38,767 nt of DNA from Desulfobacterales bacterium (GTDB lineage: Bacteria > Desulfobacterota > DSM-4660 > Desulfatiglandales > Desulfatiglandaceae), in assembly GCA_027024445.1 (NCBI GenBank), contig JALVSJ010000265.1:1-38767 (forward strand), given 5' to 3'. This document shows, piece by piece, positions 3,464 through 26,027 of the stretch. The position numbers and the translations under genes are program-made. How positions within the stretch are numbered: position 1 is the stretch's first letter; every line of letters begins with the position of its first letter. Below the pieces are notes generated by a model that was not told the DNA's origin, ran no database searches, and saw only the letters and a list, made by a program, of their open reading frames with translations.

Positions 3464-4813
3464 ATGAAAGAGATCTGGGAAGAGATCAAAAATGAACTTC
3501 GTGCGGAGCTTCCCAAGAATACCTTCTCTCTCTGGATTAGTCCTCTAAGCCTGGTTGAAAGACGCAACGGTACCATTGTGCTGGGCTGCCCCAATAGATT
3601 TTCAAAAAACTGGGTGGCAGAGAATTACAGAGGACTTATTGCTCAGAAGCTGGACAAAGCCGGAATTGGTGCCACAAAAATAGAATTTAGGGTTCAGTCC
3701 AGCCCCCCCGACAAGCTATTAACACTACCCAATGAAATGCCCCAGCAGTTGTGTCTACCGAATATGGGCACACGCCCTCCACGGGGGTATATCAACCTCA
3801 ACCGCAATTTCACATTTGAGAGATTCGTAGTAGGACCCTGCAATGAATTTGCTTACTCTGCTTCTAAGGCCATGGCGCAAGACTTTGCCTGGGGTTACAA
3901 TACCCTGCTTATGCTCGCCGGTACCGGGCTGGGTAAAAGCCATCTGTCTCAAGCCATGTGCCGTAAAATCCTAGAGTGTTTTCCCAACAAAAGGGTATAC
4001 TATATAACAGCTGAGGATTTCACTAACGAGATGATTTCCTGCCTTAGAGGCGGACGAATTGAGGAATTCAAGAAAAAATACCGCCAGGCGTGCGATGTCC
4101 TGTTGTTGGAAGAAGTGCATTTTTTAAGTGGTAAAGAAAAGACGCAAATGGAACTGGGTCATACCCTGGATGCCCTATTTAATGACAAGAAAAAGATCAT
4201 ATTCACAAGTTCCTTGCCTCCCAAGGACATTCCCTCGCTGTCCCAAGATTTATCATCTAGGCTAACCGGCGGGCTTGTCACCACCATAGAGAGACCAGAC
4301 TTTGAAACCAGGGTAAAAATAATCCGAAAAAAGGCCTCTGAACTGAAACTTTCCTTACCAGGGCCTGTAGCAGAATTGCTTGCGGAGAAATTGACAAAGG
4401 ACATCAGGCAGATGGAAAGCGCACTGAACTGTCTGAAGGCCAAATCTGAACTGCTCCATGAAAGAATAACCCAAGATCTTGCCAGGGAGGTCCTAAGATA
4501 TTTGACCAGCCCGGGTGATCTTGCGGACATGGAAGGAATAAGGCAACTGGTGTGCAAATACTACAAAATCAGTCCACAAATCCTTGCCTCAAAATCCCGC
4601 AAGAAGATTCATACACATCCACGGAATATTTTTATTTACCTATGCAGAACACATACCGAAGAAACTTTAGAGACCATCTCTAGAGCAGTTAACCGCAGCC
4701 ACTCCACGGTGCTGTATGCCTTTGAAACGGTGGAGAAAAAGATTCGAGCGGAGTCCAAGATCAGAAAAGAGGTGGAATTCCTAAGCCAAAAAATCAAGGA
4801 AGGGACCCTGTGA
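3464..4813 (+). CDS. dnaA: Chromosomal replication initiator DnaA, first copy (dnaA1)
   Basis: 449 residues with the full DnaA plan. Domain I (1-65, WEEIKNELRAELP...F..WI.PL) is followed by a short linker. The AAA+ domain starts at about 108 (NFTFERFVVGPCNEFAYSA), and the DNA-binding domain IV spans about 350-449. Walker A is A152-GTGLGKS159. The Walker B acids are both Glu (LLLEEVHFL, E216-E217) instead of the usual Asp-Asp. The sensor 2 arginine is kept (R315 in IRQMESALN), as is an arginine-finger SRL. The helix-turn-helix signature reads NRSHSTV (410-416) in place of GRDHTTV. An AGGAGGT ribosome-binding site lies at 3454-3460. The gene is not beside dnaN; it stands between an AT-rich region and a small membrane-protein gene that it overlaps by four bases. 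Of the two DnaA copies it has the better-preserved ATPase. Confidence 0.93.
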   Translation: MKEIWEEIKNELRAELPKNTFSLWISPLSLVERRNGTIVLGCPNRFSKNWVAENYRGLIAQKLDKAGIGATKIEFRVQSSPPDKLLTLPNEMPQQLCLPNMGTRPPRGYINLNRNFTFERFVVGPCNEFAYSASKAMAQDFAWGYNTLLMLAGTGLGKSHLSQAMCRKILECFPNKRVYYITAEDFTNEMISCLRGGRIEEFKKKYRQACDVLLLEEVHFLSGKEKTQMELGHTLDALFNDKKKIIFTSSLPPKDIPSLSQDLSSRLTGGLVTTIERPDFETRVKIIRKKASELKLSLPGPVAELLAEKLTKDIRQMESALNCLKAKSELLHERITQDLAREVLRYLTSPGDLADMEGIRQLVCKYYKISPQILASKSRKKIHTHPRNIFIYLCRTHTEETLETISRAVNRSHSTVLYAFETVEKKIRAESKIRKEVEFLSQKIKEGTL

Positions 4814-15889: not shown

Positions 15890-17209
15890 TTAACAATAGG
15901 TTATTATCTTTTTTAACTCTTCAACTTCTTGAGCCACTGTTTCATTATTTTCTATATCCTTTCGTATTTTTCTCAAGGCATACAGGACACTAGAATGAGT
16001 CATCTTACCGAAGGCCTCTCCAATTTCCTGGAGCCGGCAGCCTAAAATCTCTTTACATAGATACATGGCCACATGCCTACAACAACAGACTTGCCGCTGT
16101 CTAGACTGAGACCTGAGTTGAGAAGAATCAACACCGTAAAAGCGAGCTACTGAGTCCTGAATGTTTCTTATGTTTATATCTTTGTGTCTACCGAGCCCGA
16201 CCAGCCTCTTTACATGGGACAACTCGATGGGCTTGGTGTTATTAGTTGCATACTTAGAAATCTCGTCAGAATAAGATAAAAGTTCGCCAACATCGGTGGT
16301 GAGGTTAACAAGATAAAAGACAATATCATCCGTTACCGATACAGATTGTTTTGCCAGCCTGTTTCTTACAATTTTTGATCTTGTTTCCTGTTCTACCTTT
16401 GGTATTTCAGCCAGAATGCCTGACTGGAGTCTGCTTGAGAGGTGAGGGTCCATATCCTTGGTGGAGGTGGGAGACTCGGCTGAAGCGAATGCCATTGGTT
16501 TGTTATTGAGTTGGAATGTGTCGCAGATGGAATGAAGTATGGCCTGAGCCTTATGATTTCCTGAAAGTAGATGAATATCATCTAATATTAGAATGTCCAA
16601 TAGTAGTACGCAGTTTGTTAGGTCGCCTACTAATCCTTCCCGATGGTCTTGTCCCAGGATCCCTAATAGCTTGTTGGCATTTAGGTAAGCCGCGCGTGCC
16701 TCTGGGTTCCTCTGTTTTATTCTATTCCCTATTGCATGGAGTAAATGAGTTTTACCACAGGTAATGGAGCTAAAAATCACTAAAGGAGTGGTTGAGGTAG
16801 GTGTCTGAGCATCTGCTATGGACATGGCAGCAGCGTGGGCAAATCGATTGCTGTTATCTAGCACGAAGGAATCAAAAGAGTACTCGGGAATGAAGGGATG
16901 GAGTATTTGATCCCAAGAGTCAATATGCTCGGGCCCTGAATTGCCTGTGGTGATACAGGGGAGATTTGGGTATGAATATGTTATTTGTGGGTGGTAACCA
17001 CATACCTCAGCAAAAGCGTTTTGGAGGTCTTCTGTGAAGTGGTCCTTCAACCAGATAGCCACGAAACGGTTTGGTGCTTCAATAATTGCCTTATTCTGGT
17101 TAATGCTTTGTAATCTACTGCCAAAAAACCACGGTTCAATCTCTGCTTTTCCGTGAACTGACTGCAGAACTTTGATGATTTGCTTCCATATGTCTTTTTT
17201 TTTTGGCAT
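15890..17209 (-). CDS. DnaA-like replication initiator, second and degenerate copy (dnaA2)
   Basis: 439 residues that align with DnaA from end to end: domain I (1-65, WKQIIKVLQSV...IEAPNRFVAIWLKDHF), AAA+ from about 108 (YSFDSFVLDNSNRFAHAAAMSIA), and domain IV from about 345. It sits in the classical position ahead of dnaN-gyrB-gyrA. Key ATPase signatures are altered. The Walker A glycines are replaced (SSITCGKT, 147-154, for GGVGLGKT), the sensor 1 segment is ASAES for TSDRP, and the sensor 2 arginine position is Gly308 (DVGELLS for NVRELEG). Walker B keeps Asp210-Asp211, the SR finger (Arg260) is present, and domain IV keeps GKMTHSSVLYALRKI. The ATG is followed by a run of ten A and has no visible ribosome-binding site. 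It probably still binds DNA and may have lost normal ATP switching. Confidence 0.88.
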   Translation of the reverse strand: MPKKKDIWKQIIKVLQSVHGKAEIEPWFFGSRLQSINQNKAIIEAPNRFVAIWLKDHFTEDLQNAFAEVCGYHPQITYSYPNLPCITTGNSGPEHIDSWDQILHPFIPEYSFDSFVLDNSNRFAHAAAMSIADAQTPTSTTPLVIFSSITCGKTHLLHAIGNRIKQRNPEARAAYLNANKLLGILGQDHREGLVGDLTNCVLLLDILILDDIHLLSGNHKAQAILHSICDTFQLNNKPMAFASAESPTSTKDMDPHLSSRLQSGILAEIPKVEQETRSKIVRNRLAKQSVSVTDDIVFYLVNLTTDVGELLSYSDEISKYATNNTKPIELSHVKRLVGLGRHKDINIRNIQDSVARFYGVDSSQLRSQSRQRQVCCCRHVAMYLCKEILGCRLQEIGEAFGKMTHSSVLYALRKIRKDIENNETVAQEVEELKKIITYC

Positions 17210-17309: not shown

Positions 17310-18059
17310 ATGCACTCTATAGCCTTTGCAGGCAAAGGTGGGACAGGGAAAACAACACTGGCTGGGATCCTGATTCGTTATCTGGTGGAAAATGACTTAA
17401 CTCCTGTACTTGCTGTTGATGCAGACGCCAACGCAAACCTCAATGAGGTTTTAGGGCTGGAGGTAATTGAGACCCTGGGCGAGGCAAGAGAGCAGATGAA
17501 AAAGGGTGTGGCCAGTGGAATGACCAAGGATGTATTCATGGAAATGAAACTGCAGGAGGCCGTCGTTGAATCCAATGGCTTTGACCTTATTGTCATGGGA
17601 AGACCAGAAGGCGCTGGCTGTTATTGTGCTGCCAATTCTTTGCTTACGCAATATCTCGAAAAGCTAATAGGTAATTATAGGTATATCGTGATGGACAATG
17701 AGGCAGGGATGGAACACCTCAGTAGACTCACAACAAATAATATTGACGCCCTGCTTGTGGTTTCAGATCCTACCAGGAGAGGACTTCAGGCCGCATCAAG
17801 AATAGTTAATCTAGCTGAAGAGCTTAACCTGAATATTAGAGATAAATATGTGCTTGTTAACCTAGCAAAAGAGGGGCAAGCAAAGGAAATTAAAGATGTT
17901 GCTGCCAGTTTTAGTCTCGAACTCATAGGTATTATACCCGAAGATGAAGAAATAAGGACGTATGATCTAAAGGGTATCCCAACCATGGAGCTTCCATCTA
18001 ATAACAAAGCGCTTAATGCTGCCTTTGAAATTTTCGAAAAGCTAATTTCTTCACTCTAG
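17310..18059 (+). CDS. cooC: CooC-type nickel-insertion ATPase for CO dehydrogenase/acetyl-CoA synthase
   Basis: 249 residues, MinD/ParA-like deviant Walker A GKGGTGKTT at 8-16, AVDADANANL as the A' region, and IVMDNEAGMEHLSR as the Walker B/switch region. A GCYC motif at about residues 104-107 matches the CxC that binds metal between the two CooC subunits. CooC/AcsF proteins use ATP to help load nickel into CODH or acetyl-CoA synthase. A TGGAGGAAA ribosome-binding site precedes the ATG. It diverges from dnaA2 across 100 bases and heads the acs gene group, 318 bases upstream of acsD. Confidence 0.92.
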   Translation: MHSIAFAGKGGTGKTTLAGILIRYLVENDLTPVLAVDADANANLNEVLGLEVIETLGEAREQMKKGVASGMTKDVFMEMKLQEAVVESNGFDLIVMGRPEGAGCYCAANSLLTQYLEKLIGNYRYIVMDNEAGMEHLSRLTTNNIDALLVVSDPTRRGLQAASRIVNLAEELNLNIRDKYVLVNLAKEGQAKEIKDVAASFSLELIGIIPEDEEIRTYDLKGIPTMELPSNNKALNAAFEIFEKLISSL

Positions 18060-18186
18060 AATGATCGAAGGTGGTGAGAAATTAAAAAAGTAGTACCTGT
18101 CAGCTGGATATCAATATGTAGTATTCAATTAGTTTGTAACACTATATATAGTATGTGATATGTGCTTAAAATAATGTAGAATTTCC

Positions 18187-18215
18187 TTGACAAGCCTAGA
18201 CACATCGTCTATTTT
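18187..18215 (+). promoter_or_regulatory. Possible promoter between cooC and acsD
   Basis: TTGACA (18187-18192), a 17-base spacer and TATTTT (18210-18215) fit a sigma70-like promoter, with a start expected near 18222. That start would be only a few bases before the terminator-like hairpin at 18226, so its use to drive acsD would require readthrough or another promoter further down. Confidence 0.4.
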
Positions 18216-18225
18216 ACTGCTTCGG

Positions 18226-18250
18226 TTACCTCTCCTGAGGTAATTTTTTT
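18226..18250 (+). terminator. Intrinsic terminator or attenuator between cooC and acsD
   Basis: TTACCTC (18226-18232), loop TCCT, GAGGTAA (18237-18243) and seven T (18244-18250). It could end the cooC transcript or attenuate transcription into acsD. The 318-base cooC-acsD gap also holds an AT-only palindrome (ACTATATATAGT, 18141-18152) and, further down, an inverted repeat GCACCT...AGGTGC around 18300-18320. No ORF is seen in the gap. Confidence 0.6.
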
Positions 18251-18377
18251 GTAGTGCTTTGTTATATTTTTCACAACATTAACACCAACCTGGTTAAGAT
18301 GCACCTGCCAGGTGAGGTGCGTTTATGTCAGAGTTTATTTTCGGACCATGAATAACCTAAAGTAAGGAGGGCTAAAA

Positions 18378-19967
18378 TTGGCTTTTCAAATCCCCAAACA
18401 GAGCTATTCTGGGAGTATTAGAGAGGTAGTAATTGGTGCTGGCGATGCTGTAATAAAATTGGGTGGTCAGACCTCATTTCCTTTTCATACCTTCGAAGGA
18501 GAGATGCCAAATCCACCAAAAATTGCTATGGAAGTATGGGATTATGACCCATCGGAAGAGTGGCCAAAAGCAGCACTGGAGCCATTCAAGGATGTGGTAT
18601 CCTCCCCCGAGGCCTGGGCTAAGAAATGCGTGGAAGAGTATGGGGCTGATTTGATAGTCCTTCAACTTAAGAGTACCGATCCCAATGGTATGGACAGACC
18701 CGCTGAGGAGGCCGCTGAGGTAGCTAAAAAGGTGGCTGATGCCATTAATGTACCACTTGTTGTATGGGGCACTGCCAATAACCAAAAGGACGAAGAAGTC
18801 TTACGGAAGATTTGTGAGGTTTGTGAGGGTAAAAATGTGGCATTGGCACCGGTGGAAGAAGGTTGTTACAAGGGAGTAGGGGCTACGGCGCTGGCTTATC
18901 ACCACACCGTTGTTGCTTCGACGCCTATTGATGTTAATCTCGCAAAACAACTCAATATACTTCTTGAAAATTTAGGGGTTTCCCTGGACAATATTATTAT
19001 TGATCCCACCACTGGTGGATTGGGCTACGGGCTGGAGTACAGTTACTCGGTGATGGAAAGAATCAGGATGGCAGCCCTTACCCAAGAAGACGACAAACTT
19101 CAGTCACCAATAATCTCTAATCTGGCTAATGAGATTTGGAAGTGTAAGGAGGCTGGTGAAAGTATTGAGGATGCGCCGACAATGGGTGATCCCGAAAAAA
19201 GGGGTATACTCATGGAGGTTGTAGCTGCGGTGTGCTACTTAATGGCAGGAGCAGATGTAGTGATACTGCGCCACCCTGAAAGTGTGCGCATGATCCGTTC
19301 TTTTATTGATTTAATGGTGGAAGGCGGAATGGCTACCGATATTGGAGAGATTTCCAAATTACTCCCCTACGAAGAGGCGGACCTTGTGGCTATTTCCCCA
19401 GAGCCTAACCTAGAATTCGGAGGTGAGGCTGAACCTGCTAAGAAGGAGGTGAAGAAGGCACCTAAGCAACCAGAGGCCAAGGAAAAACCCAAAGCACCAC
19501 CAAAGAAAGCTAAGCCTAAGGCTGAAGCTAAGCCAGAGAAAAAGGTGGTTGAGTTGAAGCCAAAGGAGGAGAAGAAAGAAAAACCGGCTGAAAAGCCAAA
19601 ACCTGCTAAAGTGAAGGCTGAAGAGGCGAAGGCCAGGGCCGAAGAAGCAAAAGCCAAAGCAGAGGCAGAGGCTAAAGCAAAGGCTGAGGAAGAGGCAAGG
19701 AAAAAGGCAGAGGAGGAGGCCAAGAAAAAGGAAGAAGAAGCAAAGAGAAAAGCCGAGGAAGAAGCCAAGGCCAAAGCAGAAGCAGAGGCCAAAGCCAAGG
19801 CAGAGGCTAAGGCGAAGGCTGACTTGGAAGAGCTTCGCAAGAAGAGAGCTAAAGCCAAAAAGGCGGTTACACCAGAGAGGAAAGAGCCTGAGGTGGCTGC
19901 TGTGGCCGGACTGAGTCAATTAGAGAAATTTATTGCCTATTTGGATCATATCCATAGGAGGGTGTAA
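18378..19967 (+). CDS. acsD: CODH/ACS corrinoid iron-sulfur protein small subunit (delta) with long Lys/Ala/Glu tail
   Basis: 529 residues. Residues 1 to about 350 match the TIM-barrel delta/AcsD subunit: IPKQSYSGSIREVVIG, GGQTSFPFHTFEGEMPNPPKIAMEVWD, LKSTDPNGMD, LAPVEEGCYKGVGATALAYHH, IIIDPTTGGLGYGLEYSYSVMERIR. With AcsC it carries the cobalamin that moves the methyl group to AcsB. The usual length is about 310-325 residues, so the remaining roughly 180 are extra: a low-complexity run of Lys, Ala, Glu and Pro (about 350-510), then a short amphipathic end LSQLEKFIAYLDHIHRRV. The start is TTG at 18378, with AAGGAGGG six bases upstream. acsB follows after 60 bases. Confidence 0.93.
   Translation: MAFQIPKQSYSGSIREVVIGAGDAVIKLGGQTSFPFHTFEGEMPNPPKIAMEVWDYDPSEEWPKAALEPFKDVVSSPEAWAKKCVEEYGADLIVLQLKSTDPNGMDRPAEEAAEVAKKVADAINVPLVVWGTANNQKDEEVLRKICEVCEGKNVALAPVEEGCYKGVGATALAYHHTVVASTPIDVNLAKQLNILLENLGVSLDNIIIDPTTGGLGYGLEYSYSVMERIRMAALTQEDDKLQSPIISNLANEIWKCKEAGESIEDAPTMGDPEKRGILMEVVAAVCYLMAGADVVILRHPESVRMIRSFIDLMVEGGMATDIGEISKLLPYEEADLVAISPEPNLEFGGEAEPAKKEVKKAPKQPEAKEKPKAPPKKAKPKAEAKPEKKVVELKPKEEKKEKPAEKPKPAKVKAEEAKARAEEAKAKAEAEAKAKAEEEARKKAEEEAKKKEEEAKRKAEEEAKAKAEAEAKAKAEAKAKADLEELRKKRAKAKKAVTPERKEPEVAAVAGLSQLEKFIAYLDHIHRRV
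19440..19870 (+). repeat. Low-complexity repeat encoding the AcsD Lys/Ala/Glu tail
   Basis: Purine-rich DNA built from repeated GCC/GCT-AAG/AAA-GCA-GAG/GAA units. It keeps the acsD frame open throughout and translates to many AKAEAEAKAKAEEE-like units. Such DNA can expand or contract by slippage. It also creates long spurious open frames on the opposite strand. Confidence 0.8.
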
Positions 19968-20027
19968 AACACCCGGTTCGATGTTATCGGATTAAGAATA
20001 ACCTCTTAAGAAGGGAGGAAGTTTTTT

Positions 20028-22244
20028 ATGTCAAAGTTAGTAGCGTTTGCAGCGATTCAGGGAGCCTATAACATAGTCTCAAAAGCAGAGGGTAAATATA
20101 AAAGGGCACTTGAGGCTTACGGTGGGAGCCAGAAGCTGGAGTTTCCTAACACAGCTTACTATTTACCCATCATCTATTCTCTCACTGGGATAAAGGTGAC
20201 AGATATGGACTCGGCGCGCAAACCTCTTGAGTTGGCGCGCAAACTGTTGCCCCCGCATCTTAAGAAGGATTGTCACGTTCCATACTTGGGACCAGTACTG
20301 GACGCGGGTATGGCAGCACTTTTTGCAGAGGAAATAGTAGAAGCAATTCGATATGTAGAAGATCCGGATTTTTACCAGCCCGGAGTTGAAGACCCAGATG
20401 TTGACAACGGTAAGATCTGGCTTGGGGCCGCTGATGATACAATCATGAGAAAGCGCGGTGTGGAATTTGTGGATGGAACAGCCCCAGGATTCGCGGCAAT
20501 AGTAGGTGCAGCCCCTGATCCCGAGACGGCCAAAAAGATAGCCGAGGAATATCAGGTAAAAACGATTTATGTATTTATGGCGGCGAACCAGTACGGCACC
20601 ACTTTTGCTGAGCAGCTCATTGAAGCAGGCGTACAAATAGGCTGGAATACCAGGTTGGTGCCCTTTGGTCCTGATATATCTGCGGCCGTGTTCGCCCTGG
20701 GTTTTGCAAACAGAGCCGGCATGGCATTTGGTGGTATTCAGCCTGGTGACTACAAAAAACAATTGGCATACCAGAAAAACCGAATTTTCGCTTTCGTAAA
20801 TGCTCTGGGCGATGTTAATGCGGAATGGGCAGCAAATGCAGCAGGTGCCATCAACTGGGGTTTCCCAACCATAGCGGATACGGACATTCCCGAAATTCTT
20901 CCTACGGGCGTTTGTACCTATGAGCACGTGGTGGCCAATGTTCCCCATGACCAAATTGTCTCAAAGTCTATTGAAATTCGGGGCCTCAAGGTCACCGTTG
21001 CCAAGGTGGATATTCCCCTTGCATACGGTCCTGCATTTGAGGGCGAGAGAGTGCGCAAAGACGACCTCTATCTCGAGATGGGCGGCGGAAAGACCCAGTG
21101 TACAGAGTTGTGTAAAATGGCAGAGATGAACGAGATAGAGGACGGAAAGGTGGAAGTCATCGGTCCGGATGTAAAGGACGTGAAAGAAGGCGATAAGCTG
21201 CCGTTGGGCATCTTTGTGCAGGTGGCTGGAAGAAAGATGCAGCCTGATTTTGAGCCTATTCTTGAGAGACAAATCCACCATTTGATCAACTATGCCCAAG
21301 GGATAATGCACATAGGGCAGAGGGATATTTCCTGGATTCGAGTGAGCAAATCAGCCATCGAAAAAGGTTTCACCCTGAAAGACATAGGAGTGATCCTTCA
21401 CGCGAAGTTCCATCAAGACTTTTCCAACATATTAGATAAGGTGCAGGTTACCCTTTATACCAAGAAAGAAGACGTGGATGAGCTTACGAAAAGGGCTAGA
21501 GAGGAATACAGGATCAGGGATGAGCGCGTGGAAAAGATGACCGACGAGACCACGGAAATATTTTATTCCTGCACCCTCTGCCAGTCTTTTGCTCCTACCC
21601 ACGTATGCGTGGTGAGTCCTGAGAGGACGGGGCTGTGTGGGGCGTACAACTGGATGGATTGTAAGGCCTCCTACGAGATCAATCCTACAGGACCAAACCA
21701 GCCCGTTGAAAAAGGTGAGGTAATTGACGAGAAACTCGGCCAATTTAAAGGAGTCAATGAGTTTGTTTATAAAGCCTCTCGCCAGGCCATAGATCATTAC
21801 AATTTCTATAGCGTGGTCCACGATCCCATGACCACATGCGGTTGCTGCGAATGTATTTGCGCTGTGCTTCCTGGTTGTAACGGTGTGATGACGGTTCATA
21901 GGGACTATACTGGAGAGACTCCCTGTGGAATGAAATTCACGACGCTCGCTGGAATGATTGGTGGAGGTCAGTCGACCCCTGGGTTTGTGGGCCACTCCAA
22001 GTTTAATATTACTCAGCGAAAGTTCATAAAGGGCGATGGAGGACTGCTCAGGATGGTCTGGATGCCAAAGTCCTTGAAGGAGGAGATTCGCGAGAGACTG
22101 ATCAAACGCGGCGAGGAGTTAGGTGTACCCGATCTAATCGACAGGATTGCCGACGAAACGGTGGGTACCACAGAGGAGGAGATTCTCCCGTTCCTGAAAG
22201 AAAAGGATCATCCTGCACTAAAGATGGAACCTATTGTTGGATAA
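20028..22244 (+). CDS. acsB: Acetyl-CoA synthase (CO-methylating), alpha subunit
   Basis: 738 residues, the full-length bacterial form with the N-terminal CODH-contact domain. It condenses CO, the AcsCD-bound methyl group and CoA into acetyl-CoA at the nickel-containing A-cluster. The six A-cluster cysteines are visible: C515, C518, C527, C537 (in CTLCQSFAPTHVC and RTGLC), then C604 and C606 (TTCGCCEC). Their spacing equals that of the Moorella enzyme (506, 509, 518, 528, 595, 597, from memory) with a constant shift of nine. A GGGAGGAAG ribosome-binding sequence precedes the ATG. It lies between acsD and acsC. The partner CODH subunit acsA is not nearby. Confidence 0.97.
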   Translation: MSKLVAFAAIQGAYNIVSKAEGKYKRALEAYGGSQKLEFPNTAYYLPIIYSLTGIKVTDMDSARKPLELARKLLPPHLKKDCHVPYLGPVLDAGMAALFAEEIVEAIRYVEDPDFYQPGVEDPDVDNGKIWLGAADDTIMRKRGVEFVDGTAPGFAAIVGAAPDPETAKKIAEEYQVKTIYVFMAANQYGTTFAEQLIEAGVQIGWNTRLVPFGPDISAAVFALGFANRAGMAFGGIQPGDYKKQLAYQKNRIFAFVNALGDVNAEWAANAAGAINWGFPTIADTDIPEILPTGVCTYEHVVANVPHDQIVSKSIEIRGLKVTVAKVDIPLAYGPAFEGERVRKDDLYLEMGGGKTQCTELCKMAEMNEIEDGKVEVIGPDVKDVKEGDKLPLGIFVQVAGRKMQPDFEPILERQIHHLINYAQGIMHIGQRDISWIRVSKSAIEKGFTLKDIGVILHAKFHQDFSNILDKVQVTLYTKKEDVDELTKRAREEYRIRDERVEKMTDETTEIFYSCTLCQSFAPTHVCVVSPERTGLCGAYNWMDCKASYEINPTGPNQPVEKGEVIDEKLGQFKGVNEFVYKASRQAIDHYNFYSVVHDPMTTCGCCECICAVLPGCNGVMTVHRDYTGETPCGMKFTTLAGMIGGGQSTPGFVGHSKFNITQRKFIKGDGGLLRMVWMPKSLKEEIRERLIKRGEELGVPDLIDRIADETVGTTEEEILPFLKEKDHPALKMEPIVG

Positions 22245-22256
22245 GAAGGTTAAAAA

Positions 22257-22280
22257 CTAGCAGCGCCTACCAGTTGCTAG
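22257..22280 (+). repeat. Intercistronic hairpin between acsB and acsC
   Basis: CTAGCA (22257-22262) and TGCTAG (22275-22280) can pair across a 12-base loop just after the acsB stop. There is no T-tract, so it is more likely an mRNA stability or processing element than a terminator. Confidence 0.35.
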
Positions 22281-22331
22281 ACCATGAGATGGGATGCGTG
22301 ACTTGGTAACTACAGACATGAGGAGTGCGAC

Positions 22332-23678
22332 ATGGGACTAACAGGAATTCAAATTTTTAAGATGCTACCCCAAACAAATTGCGGCGAATGTGGAGTGCCC
22401 ACCTGCCTTGCTTTTGCCATGAACCTTGCCTCCGGTAAGGCCGAACTGGATGCCTGCCCATATGTTTCTGATGAGGCAAGAGAGAAGCTGGCAGAGGCCT
22501 CAGCTCCTCCCATTAGGCCTGTTGCCATAGGAGCAGGTCCAAGGGCCTTTAAAGTAGGTGGTGAACTGGTGCTTTTCCGCCATGAAAAGACCTTTTACAA
22601 TCCTACCGCCTTGGGAGTGCTGGTTGAATCAGACATTTCAGCCGAGGATCTGGACACAAAATTGAAAATCTGGAATGCATATCAATTTGAGCGTGTGGGG
22701 CTGAACCTGAGGCCGGAGTTGGTGGCTGTGAAAGACGTAAATGGTGACAGCGGGGCCTTTGTTGCCACAGCCAAGAAAGTGGCTGAGGAGAGCGAGTTTG
22801 GCCTGGTGCTGATGAGTGATAAGACGGATGTGCTCAAAGAGGCAGCTGAGGCAACCGCCTTCAAACGACCCCTTCTCTATGCAGCCACCGCGGAAAACGT
22901 CGAAGATATGGGGAATCTGGCAAAAGAAACGGGTCTTCCCCTTGCTGTAAAAGGAAAGGATATAGAGGATCTCATTGGTCTCAGTGACAAGCTAACTGGC
23001 ATGGGTCTTAAAGATCTCGTTTTAGACTCGGGTTCCAGAGAACTTAAAAAGGTCTTTGAGGATCAGGTGGCCATACGAAGGGCGCCTCTTAAAGAGGGAA
23101 ATCGCTCCCTAGGATTTCCTACCATTACGTTTCCTTGTGAGATGGCAAGCAATCTGGATGTGGAGACCATGATAGCATCCATGCTGATCGCCAAATACGG
23201 GGCCATAGCGATTCTTTCAGATTTTAAGGGGGAGAGTCTGTTTCCACTGCTGGTGGAGCGGCTTAACATCTTCACAGACCCCCAGAGACCAATGACCGTC
23301 ACAGAAGGTATCTACGAAATAGGAAACCCTGATGAGAACTCACCGGTCCTAGTAACGACGAATTTCTCCCTCACTTACTTTATTGTGAGCGGAGAGATTG
23401 AGGGAAGCAGGGTGCCAAGTTGGCTGCTGATTATGGATACCGAAGGGCTGTCGGTGATGACCGCGTGGGCAGCCGGAAAGTTCGTGGGCGATGCCGTGGG
23501 GATGTTTGTCAAGAAGTGTGGGATTGCAGACAAGATTTCCCACAGGAAAGTTATAATACCCGGATATGCAGCTGCCATAGTTGGAGACATGGAGGAAGAA
23601 TTGCCGGATTGGGAGGTTATTGTCGGGCCCAGAGATGCCTCTTTAATCCCCAAGTTCCTCAAAGAAATGGTAGGCTAG
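22332..23678 (+). CDS. acsC: Corrinoid iron-sulfur protein large subunit (gamma)
   Basis: 448 residues. The N-terminal domain binds the low-potential [4Fe-4S] cluster through Cys17, Cys20, Cys25 and Cys42 (CGECGVPTC ... DAC). The middle is a TIM barrel (FRHEKTFYNPTALGVLVE onward), and the C-terminus is the cobalamin-binding Rossmann-like domain (about 330-448). With AcsD it accepts the methyl group from AcsE and delivers it to AcsB. A GAGGAG ribosome-binding site precedes the ATG. acsE follows after 45 bases. Confidence 0.96.
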   Translation: MGLTGIQIFKMLPQTNCGECGVPTCLAFAMNLASGKAELDACPYVSDEAREKLAEASAPPIRPVAIGAGPRAFKVGGELVLFRHEKTFYNPTALGVLVESDISAEDLDTKLKIWNAYQFERVGLNLRPELVAVKDVNGDSGAFVATAKKVAEESEFGLVLMSDKTDVLKEAAEATAFKRPLLYAATAENVEDMGNLAKETGLPLAVKGKDIEDLIGLSDKLTGMGLKDLVLDSGSRELKKVFEDQVAIRRAPLKEGNRSLGFPTITFPCEMASNLDVETMIASMLIAKYGAIAILSDFKGESLFPLLVERLNIFTDPQRPMTVTEGIYEIGNPDENSPVLVTTNFSLTYFIVSGEIEGSRVPSWLLIMDTEGLSVMTAWAAGKFVGDAVGMFVKKCGIADKISHRKVIIPGYAAAIVGDMEEELPDWEVIVGPRDASLIPKFLKEMVG

Positions 23679-23723
23679 AACGAATACGGGTCTAATACAA
23701 AAACTTACCAGAGGAGTGGACTC

Positions 23724-24608
23724 ATGTTATTGATTGGAGAAAACCTAAATGTCATCAACCGCGTAATAGGTAAGGCCTTTAAGGAAAGGGATCCTGGTCC
23801 AATAGTGGAAGAGGCAAAGAGGCAAAAAGAAAAGGGCATGGACTGGATCGACGTGAATTTGGGACCTGCCAGGAAGGGTGGCCCAGAACTTATGGAATGG
23901 GTTGTGAAAACCATTCAAGACGAGATTGGTGATACCCCACCACTCTGTCTGGACACATCTAACATTGAGGCCATGGAAGCGGGTCTGGCAGTGCATAAGG
24001 GAAAGGCTATCATGAATTCCATCATGTGTCGCCCAGAGCGTTACGAAAAGATGATTCCCTTGGCAGTCAAGTACAATGCCCAGTTTATCGCACTGATGTG
24101 GGGTCCGGAAGGTCTTCCTAGAGACGAGAATGAAAGGGCGGCCCTGGCTGTGGAATTGATATATGCAGCAAATGAGGCTGGTATCCAAAACGAGGATATA
24201 TTTGTAGATGGTGTTGTGACGCCTGTCAACATCCAGCAGCCTCAACTTATGAGCTTACTGGCTTTTCAAGAGATGCTCCAGGATATTGCTCCGGGTGTTA
24301 AATCCACCTGTGGGCTGTCAAACTGCTCAAACGGGGCACCGGATCACCTGAGGCCCATATTGAATCAGACCTACATGGTGATGCTGGAGCGCAAAGGCAT
24401 GTATTCGTGTATTGCGGATGCATATGATGACAAACTCCATGCCATCGCGAGAGGCCAACGGCCTGATATTGTTGAGGTTATTCATAAAGTAATGGATGGG
24501 GAAGAAATCGATATGGATTCCCTCTCAAAAGAACTGCAGGATTATGTAAAGACTGCCAGGGTGCTGCTTGGCCACACACTTTACTCGGATTCCTGGCTGG
24601 AGTTGTAA
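23724..24608 (+). CDS. acsE: Methyltetrahydrofolate:corrinoid iron-sulfur protein methyltransferase
   Basis: 294 residues forming a single pterin-binding TIM barrel. Seen are LLIGENLNVINR at the first strand, GMDWIDVNLGPAR, LCLDTSNIEAMEAGL, IMNSIMCRPERY, and STCGLSNCSNGAPDHLRPILNQ. It moves the methyl group of 5-methyl-tetrahydrofolate to the cob(I)amide of AcsCD, linking the folate branch to acetyl-CoA synthesis or running in reverse in acetate oxidation. Tetrahydrofolate use marks the bacterial rather than the archaeal version of the pathway. An AGAGGAG ribosome-binding site precedes the ATG. Confidence 0.95.
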   Translation: MLLIGENLNVINRVIGKAFKERDPGPIVEEAKRQKEKGMDWIDVNLGPARKGGPELMEWVVKTIQDEIGDTPPLCLDTSNIEAMEAGLAVHKGKAIMNSIMCRPERYEKMIPLAVKYNAQFIALMWGPEGLPRDENERAALAVELIYAANEAGIQNEDIFVDGVVTPVNIQQPQLMSLLAFQEMLQDIAPGVKSTCGLSNCSNGAPDHLRPILNQTYMVMLERKGMYSCIADAYDDKLHAIARGQRPDIVEVIHKVMDGEEIDMDSLSKELQDYVKTARVLLGHTLYSDSWLEL

Positions 24609-24657
24609 CTTAGCAACGCAAGATATGTAGATAGCTTTGTCAGGATCCGTTACAAGG

Positions 24658-24694
24658 GCCTCCTTCGCAGGTGGATATGTGGGGGAGGCTTTTT
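24658..24694 (+). terminator. Possible terminator after acsE
   Basis: GCCTCC (24658-24663) pairs with GGAGGC (24684-24689) across a 20-base loop, followed by TTTTT (24690-24694). The large loop makes it weaker than usual; partial readthrough into the NifX-like gene 46 bases later is plausible. Confidence 0.5.
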
Positions 24695-24740: not shown

Positions 24741-25124
24741 ATGAAAAATGGGAGAATAGCAATCCCGTCCATGGCTCCAGGGGGCCTAGAGGCAAAACGC
24801 TCCGGACATTTCGGCCACTGTGACGTTTTTACCCTGGTGGACGTTGAAGACGGCCAAATTACAAACGTTACAATACTGCCCAATCAGGGTCACGTTCAGG
24901 GGGGATGTATGGTGCCGGTCAACTTATTGGCACAGCACAACGTAGATGCTCTTATTGTTGCGGGCATGGGGATGAGACCGCTGATGGGTTTTCAACAGGT
25001 AGGAATCAAGGTCTATTATGATGGGGAGCGTCCTGAGATTAAGCCCGTCGTAGAGGATCTCATTGCCGGGAAGCTGCCTCAGATGGGAGAGGAACAGGTC
25101 TGTGGAGGCGGTATGCAACACTAA
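24741..25124 (+). CDS. NifX/NifB-type iron-molybdenum cluster-binding domain protein (first copy)
   Basis: 127 residues of the dinitrogenase iron-molybdenum cofactor family (NifX, NafY, VnfX, C-terminal NifB, MTH1175-like). The pattern IAIPSMAPGGLEAKRSGHFGHCDVFTLVDVEDG, then GGCMVPVNLLAQHNVDALIVAGMGMRPLMGFQQVGIKVYY, is typical, with the family GxGxRP-like turn. The C-terminus CGGGMQH adds a cysteine and histidine that could bind metal. No nif genes are seen in the window, so a nitrogenase role is unlikely. Being placed just after acsE and before a NifU-like scaffold gene suggests metal-cluster handling for the acs enzymes; that is inference. A TTGGAGGT ribosome-binding sequence is present. 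Confidence 0.85.
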   Translation: MKNGRIAIPSMAPGGLEAKRSGHFGHCDVFTLVDVEDGQITNVTILPNQGHVQGGCMVPVNLLAQHNVDALIVAGMGMRPLMGFQQVGIKVYYDGERPEIKPVVEDLIAGKLPQMGEEQVCGGGMQH

Positions 25125-25161
25125 AGTAAAAATGAGGCCAGGAAAGGGGGCTTTTTATAAG

Positions 25162-25599
25162 ATGGCAGACGATATTTATGAAATGCTTTCCAAATCAGGC
25201 TACTCTGACAAAGCCATAGAATACTTTAAAAGTCGTGAAAGTATTGGTGAATTGGCCGAAGCTGATCAGGTTACAGACCTCACGGGCCCGTGTGGCGATA
25301 ATATGAAGATTTATTTAAAGTTTAATGGAAATAAGATAGATGATGCTAAAATTCAGGTACTAGGTTGTCCCGGTGCCGTGGCTTCAGCCTGCGCCGTGGC
25401 CACCCTTGCCAAAGGTAGAACACTTGAGGAAGCAAGAAACATAGATCTGGATGCCCTTTACAAAGAGTTGGAGAAGCTTCCAGACAAGAAAATCCATTGT
25501 GCTCGCCTTGCAGTGAAAACACTTCAAAAGGCCCTTGAAGAGTATAGTTCAAAAGGGAATATACAACAAAACCAACAGGCTGGAGGAGGCAATCGATGA
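25162..25599 (+). CDS. NifU/IscU-like iron-sulfur cluster scaffold
   Basis: 145 residues from the chosen ATG. The three ligand cysteines of IscU/NifU scaffolds are all kept in context: GPCGDNMKIYLKF (with the neighbouring Asp), GCPGAVASACAV and KIHCARLAVKTL. It therefore looks able to assemble a transient [2Fe-2S] or [4Fe-4S] cluster. The N-terminal helix ADDIYEMLSKSGYSDKAIEYF replaces the usual IscU start, and the C-terminus is a Gln/Asn/Gly tail. The start at 25162 is preferred because GGAAAGGGGG lies upstream; an in-frame ATG at 25132 is possible but has no such site. Its last codons overlap the next gene by ATGA, so the two are coupled. Confidence 0.85.
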   Translation: MADDIYEMLSKSGYSDKAIEYFKSRESIGELAEADQVTDLTGPCGDNMKIYLKFNGNKIDDAKIQVLGCPGAVASACAVATLAKGRTLEEARNIDLDALYKELEKLPDKKIHCARLAVKTLQKALEEYSSKGNIQQNQQAGGGNR

Positions 25600-25955
25600 A
25601 AATTGCCGTAACATCCAGAGACCCAGACTTGCATTCCGAAGTGGACCCACGGTTTGGAAGGGCGCCTTACATTTTGGTAGTGGATTCTGACTCCATGGAA
25701 TATGAGGTTATAGACAACAGAGAAAACGCGGAATCTTTGAAAGGGGCCGGGATTCAGGCCGCCAGCTCCGTAAGCAAGAAGGGAGCTCAAGTGCTCATTA
25801 CGGGTCACTGTGGCCCCAACGCCTTTAGGGCCCTTCAGGCTGCTGGGATAAAGGTAGTTAACGGGGCAGAGGGAACTGTGGAAAAGACCATTAATGATTA
25901 TCTGGAAGGCAAGCTCAGAGAGGCTGAGGAGCCCGATGTAGAGGGCAGGTGGTAG
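25596..25955 (+). CDS. NifX/NifB-type iron-molybdenum cluster-binding domain protein (second copy)
   Basis: 119 residues: MKIAVTSRDPDLHSEVDPRFGRAPYILVVD, then GAGIQAASSVSKKGAQVLITGHCGPNAFRALQAAGIKV. The RFGRAPYF-like and GxCGPNAF motifs are those of the single-domain NifB/NifX group common in anaerobes. It differs clearly from the first copy, so this is not a recent tandem duplicate. It overlaps the scaffold gene by four bases and is closed by a strong terminator, making the end of the acs-linked transcription unit. Confidence 0.87.
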   Translation: MKIAVTSRDPDLHSEVDPRFGRAPYILVVDSDSMEYEVIDNRENAESLKGAGIQAASSVSKKGAQVLITGHCGPNAFRALQAAGIKVVNGAEGTVEKTINDYLEGKLREAEEPDVEGRW

Positions 25956-25995: not shown

Positions 25996-26027
25996 AAGCC
26001 TCGCCGGGCCCAAGGCGAGGCTTTTTT
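25996..26027 (+). terminator. Strong intrinsic terminator
   Basis: GCCTCGCC (25998-26005) and GGCGAGGC (26014-26021) form a perfect 8-base stem, extended by two A-T pairs, followed by TTTTTT. It ends the acs / NifX-NifU-NifX unit before the TRAP transporter genes. Confidence 0.92.

Follow-up and report, generated by a model that had tools for sequence, protein, structure and literature searches.

What does a set of small metal-cluster carrier genes do when it lies directly behind an operon for acetyl-CoA synthase? The question arises in a 38,767-nucleotide stretch of DNA from a Desulfobacterales bacterium (the window), where three consecutive small genes on the + strand follow a run of acs genes on the same strand. 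This run starts with a gene for a cooC-like P-loop ATPase (17310–18059) and continues with acsD (18378–19967), whose product has a TolA-like low-complexity C-terminal extension, acsB for acetyl-CoA synthase (20028–22244), acsC (22332–23678) and the methyltransferase gene acsE (23724–24608). The cassette itself consists of nifX1 (24741–25124), nifU (25162–25599) and nifX2 (25596–25955). In a sequence-only reading, it had been described as two NifX-family proteins flanking a NifU/IscU scaffold with all ligand cysteines, and it was suggested to assemble or store a cluster precursor for acetyl-CoA synthase (ACS) and carbon monoxide dehydrogenase (CODH).

The description of the genes held up. NifX1 (127 residues) is a stand-alone PF02579 (Di-Nase) protein (Pfam E 9e-20), NifU (145 residues) is an NifU_N/IscU-type scaffold (PF01592, E 4e-24) and NifX2 (119 residues) is again a PF02579 protein (E 7e-27). 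The two NifX proteins scored 71.2 and 94.0 bits against a PF02579 gathering score of 26.3. The start of nifU is the ATG at 25162 and not a TTG upstream, and nifU and nifX2 overlap in an ATGA, as had been described for the last two genes. The assignment to metal-cluster carrier and scaffold families, rather than to a nitrogenase set, was likewise borne out by the family matches. The cassette is best regarded as a new variant arrangement in which Fe-S parts of the ORP family are combined with a NifU scaffold.

NifX1 forms a tight orthologous group. A copy with 56–91% identity was present in 35 of 61 relatives, one per genome, and other family members in these relatives were at most 39% identical. 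Over 31 aligned members C27, C56 and C121 were invariant, with a mean column identity of 81%. The sole NCBIfam match of NifX1 was to the C-terminal part of MrpORP, a fusion of an Mrp ATPase with a Di-Nase domain (Orp9 of Desulfovibrio; NF041136; PMC6345978). At 50.8 bits against a cut-off of 450, NifX1 is not a member of this family, and judged by its alignment the homology is at the domain level only. The HFGHC motif and a C-terminal VC motif are common to NifX1 and the MrpORP Di-Nase domains of relatives; among 14 domain-bearing sequences (two of them from one genome), C27 was found in 12 and C121 in all 14, and C56 was absent. NifX1 hence differs from MrpORP in being free-standing, i.e., without an ATPase domain, in its identity of only about 30–39% and in having its own third cysteine, C56. 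The isolated MrpORP domain contained about 3.2 Fe and gave an EPR signal assigned to a [3Fe-4S] cluster (PMC6345978). For NifX1, the one protein of which the PF02579 fold was checked, an AlphaFold model (pLDDT 86.7) was nearest to TM1816, PH0822 and ORP, and fold matches to NifX and NafY were weaker. In one genome of the same genus, nifX1 (L036:12001–12381 of genome G001) carries, at residue 86 (Gln in the window), an in-frame TAG that may reflect an error, decay or suppression.

NifU has the residues expected of an Fe-S scaffold. C44, D46, C69, H112 and C113 were invariant in 26 orthologues, i.e., the three ligand cysteines and the aspartate of the NifU_N/IscU type (C44, D46, C69, C113) are all conserved. 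The protein shares its fold family and every ligand residue with the N-domain scaffolds of IscU and NifU (PDB 4eb5, 7c8m). However, it scores too low for any of the curated NCBIfam scaffold equivalogs, and in place of the LPPVK motif of HscA-dependent IscU it reads LPDKK, with P and the last K retained in the orthologues. NifX2 has the orange protein ORP (Orp8, PDB 2wfb) as its best solved relative (E 4e-25), aligned over nearly its full length. The ORP family carries a Mo-Cu-sulfide cluster. The one invariant cysteine of NifX2, Cys72, is a valine in the aligned ORP, in contrast, and cluster binding by NifX2 is putative.

The cassette was said to be attached to the acs genes and to end in a strong terminator. 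The latter was recovered downstream of nifX2 (25996–26023, + strand, −20.2 kcal/mol, z = −2.9). Adjacency to acsE also holds, but co-transcription is not plain, because an equally strong predicted terminator, absent from the earlier description, lies between acsE and nifX1 (24654–24693, + strand, 16-pair stem and T-run, −24.5 kcal/mol, z = −4.0). "Attached" thus means adjacent. In each of the 15 acs-linked loci that were examined, acsE is likewise followed, ahead of the next gene, by a terminator-like hairpin with a T-run (−15 to −36 kcal/mol). As a general scan for terminators gave 16 sites compared with 15.2 in shuffled sequence, the evidence for termination comes from the z-score and from recurrence at this place. 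A search for sigma-70- and sigma-54-like promoters between the acsE terminator and nifX1 was negative, and one consensus pattern for a sigma-54 promoter had no match upstream of the cassette. It is hence possible that expression of the cassette partly depends on read-through from the acs operon.

We then compared genomic contexts in 80 named genome loci picked by similarity to NifX1. In 47 of these, nifX1 lies beside orp3/orp4, in 12 behind acs genes and in one opposite an orp cluster; eight were free of both orp and acs genes over at least 4 kb upstream, and a further 12 were not judgeable. The ORP-type loci, which include those of Desulfosarcina widdelii and Desulforapulum autotrophicum, often have the order sigma-54 regulator, third Di-Nase gene, receiver protein, orp3, orp4, nifX1, nifX2. 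The nifX1-nifX2 orthologues stand directly behind the genes for the Orp3/Orp4 ATPases in most named loci. The window locus, by contrast, is not linked to orp3/orp4, MrpORP or a sigma-54 regulator and has nifU inserted; orp3, orp4 and the sigma-54-type regulator of this genome are on another contig (C491). After removal of duplicates, nifU lay between the nifX genes in 16 of 16 acs-linked loci versus 2 of 50 ORP-linked ones. All 16 distinct acs-linked loci belong to one family, nine genera of which have retained the placement next to acs. The frequent gene order in this family is cooC-acsD-(cooS)-acsB-acsC-acsE-[hairpin]-mrp-nifX1-nifU-nifX2, as part of a wider stretch dnaN-dnaA2-acs-mrp-...-orf303-fum-surE.

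In a midpoint-rooted tree of NifX1 plus NifX2 with moderate support, copies linked to acs or accompanied by nifU were placed among the ORP-linked ones. Identity of NifX1 was 76% between the two groups and 78–79% within them, and at a 75% threshold no alignment column of NifX1 or NifX2 held a residue separating them. Co-occurrence of NifX1 with orp4 was weak among the 61 relatives (P = 0.10). Full-length ACS-type CODH genes were observed at two ORP clusters (L129:10859–12916 and L065:1673–3685; 72–73% identical to acs-linked cooS), inside or directly behind orp and with no acs genes nearby; in L129 the gene lies 88 bp behind nifX2, and the other one is inside the orp cluster of genome G057.

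We favor the explanation, at a probability of roughly 0.66, that the cassette is a relocated ORP-family scaffold and carrier module for Fe-S (or mixed metal-sulfide) clusters, joined with NifU, that serves general anaerobic traffic and is not specific to ACS/CODH. NifU would assemble a cluster on C44/C69/C113, NifX1 and NifX2 would act as two cluster carriers, and P-loop ATPases in trans (Orp3/Orp4, MrpORP or Mrp) would move the cluster to its clients, probably including the ORP system. In an ancestor of the family, the nifX1/nifX2 pair may have left, or been copied from, an orp cluster and come to flank nifU. The resulting nifX1-nifU-nifX2 unit would have landed behind acsE-mrp, and the genus of the window would later have lost that mrp. 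With nifU between the carrier proteins, the cassette ties the anaerobe-specific and poorly understood orange-protein cluster to Fe-S scaffold biology.

The main competing explanation is a maturation line for ACS/CODH, in which an Fe-S precursor of the A- or C-cluster would be built on NifU, stored by NifX1 and NifX2 and handed over by an Mrp ATPase. The claim that the cassette stands beside acs genes is correct. The place behind acsE is common to 16 distinct loci, and in the usual order no terminator-like hairpin was found between mrp and nifX1. The two ORP clusters with a full-length ACS-type CODH gene and the lack of a promoter-like site before nifX1 point the same way. Kept in nine genera, and with CODH genes in two ORP clusters, the association looks like more than chance, although this is a post hoc impression. 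However, the hairpin that follows acsE in each examined cassette locus (15 of 15) speaks against such a line, and so does co-occurrence. With a NifX1 match threshold of E at most 1e-25, 345 genomes of the phylum comprised 50 with both NifX1 and acsB, 24 with NifX1 only, 173 with acsB only and 98 with neither, which is co-occurrence at chance (odds ratio 1.18, P = 0.59, uncorrected for relatedness). A stricter NifX1 set gave 16/8/207/114 (P = 1.0, likewise uncorrected for relatedness), and the counts of 32/3/23/3 for the 61 relatives supported no association either.

Single genomes fit this picture in both directions. In G042 and G045 (98% complete) acsB was not found, and nifX1-nifX2 are present inside the orp cluster. 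The sole prismane-family gene of these genomes has the shorter length of a hybrid cluster protein, from which we infer that they have no CODH; next to dnaN-dnaA2, the site of the acs operon in other genomes, they retain an mrp. Conversely, NifX1 was not found in G047 and G049, with an acsB 91–92% identical to that of the window, and many further acsB genomes are without the cassette. The sequence-only reading had named occurrence mainly away from acs genes, or in genomes without ACS/CODH, as evidence against its proposal. Both were largely found, i.e., most orthologues are in acs-free orp clusters and G042 and G045 keep nifX1-nifX2 without acsB or a CODH-sized gene; the two ORP clusters with an ACS-type CODH gene run counter to this. 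The outer two genes normally belong to an orp cluster, which makes it unlikely that the cassette is dedicated to acetyl-CoA synthase, and we regard the maturation line as a rather improbable alternative. The acs run itself opens with a cooC-like gene of the CODH/ACS maturation ATPases (CooC, AcsF type), to which the cassette is unrelated and, unlike them, it has no ATPase. In the window's genus the run (17310–24608) is without a CODH gene (acsA/cooS), which relatives have between acsD and acsB; a CODH-length gene of the window's genome is on another contig (G000:C476). A literature search for NifX/NifU beside acs genes matched only a cyanobacterial nif paper; a paper on the genomic context of CODH did not mention NifU or NifX, and a study of how acs evolved in Desulfobacterota named none of NifU, NifX and Mrp.

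The gene contexts point to Mrp, more than to the cassette, as the probable constant Fe-S partner of acs in this lineage. A distinct Mrp ATPase (63–100% identical to the query) is encoded a few kb downstream of acsB in 20 of 20 relatives that have both on one contig, and the cassette follows it in seven of these, lies elsewhere in seven and is lacking in six. As Mrp is present with or without the cassette, it is the constant acs neighbor. This favors a delivery line to ACS/CODH, but the window's genus does not conform: an acs-side Mrp had no match at E 1e-80 in the window's genome, and the acs-side mrp is absent in this genus and in one second genus. Because Mrp follows acsE whatever the cassette does, and some ORP clusters hold an ACS-type CODH gene, an Mrp-type ATPase, at times with an ORP-derived nifX1-nifU-nifX2, might conceivably supply the CODH/ACS of Desulfobacterota with Fe-S clusters by a route that has so far gone unrecognised, which we consider doubtful. 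These proteins are nevertheless concrete candidates for Fe-S cluster supply to CODH/ACS. In genome G023 (L178) the order is acsE-mrp-nifU, without nifX1 and nifX2, and this nifU is possibly a remnant of the cassette.

Less probable still is an accident of neighborhood, in which the cassette would be a carrier unit for Fe-S clusters in general and remain by acs merely because dnaN-dnaA2-acs-mrp-...-orf303-fum-surE rearranges slowly, so that its position is uninformative on function. The flanking order is indeed kept together with the cassette, G053 keeps acsE-mrp-orf303-surE without it and G023 retains nifU alone at the spot. Slow rearrangement, however, leaves unexplained the constant nifU of the acs-linked copies and the CODH genes of two ORP clusters. 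It is compatible with the relocated ORP-family module that we prefer, not opposed to it, and gene adjacency by itself can mislead.

A FeMo-co (nitrogenase cofactor) module is implied by the names NifX and NifU, and the Pfam families are the same; NifX and NafY were also fold matches, though weaker ones. Such a module is very improbable given that ORP/TM1816 are nearer in sequence and fold than either of these two proteins and that nifD was found neither in the window's genome nor in most cassette-bearing relatives. The window's genome (G000, 91% complete) was searched family by family, and a true or near nifD was present in about 6 of the 61 relatives. The earlier statement that nitrogenase genes are missing nearby agrees with this search, and a role in nitrogenase cofactor biosynthesis was rejected, as this genome yielded no nifD among the nif structural genes.

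Two further features of the window concern the acs run and its upstream flank. In AcsD (18378–19967) the C-terminus, residues ~350–514, matches TolA. Moreover, the window encodes two DnaA homologues (15890–17209 and 3464–4813), of which the copy beside dnaN and the acs run is divergent in sequence (28–40% to relatives) but conserved in position.
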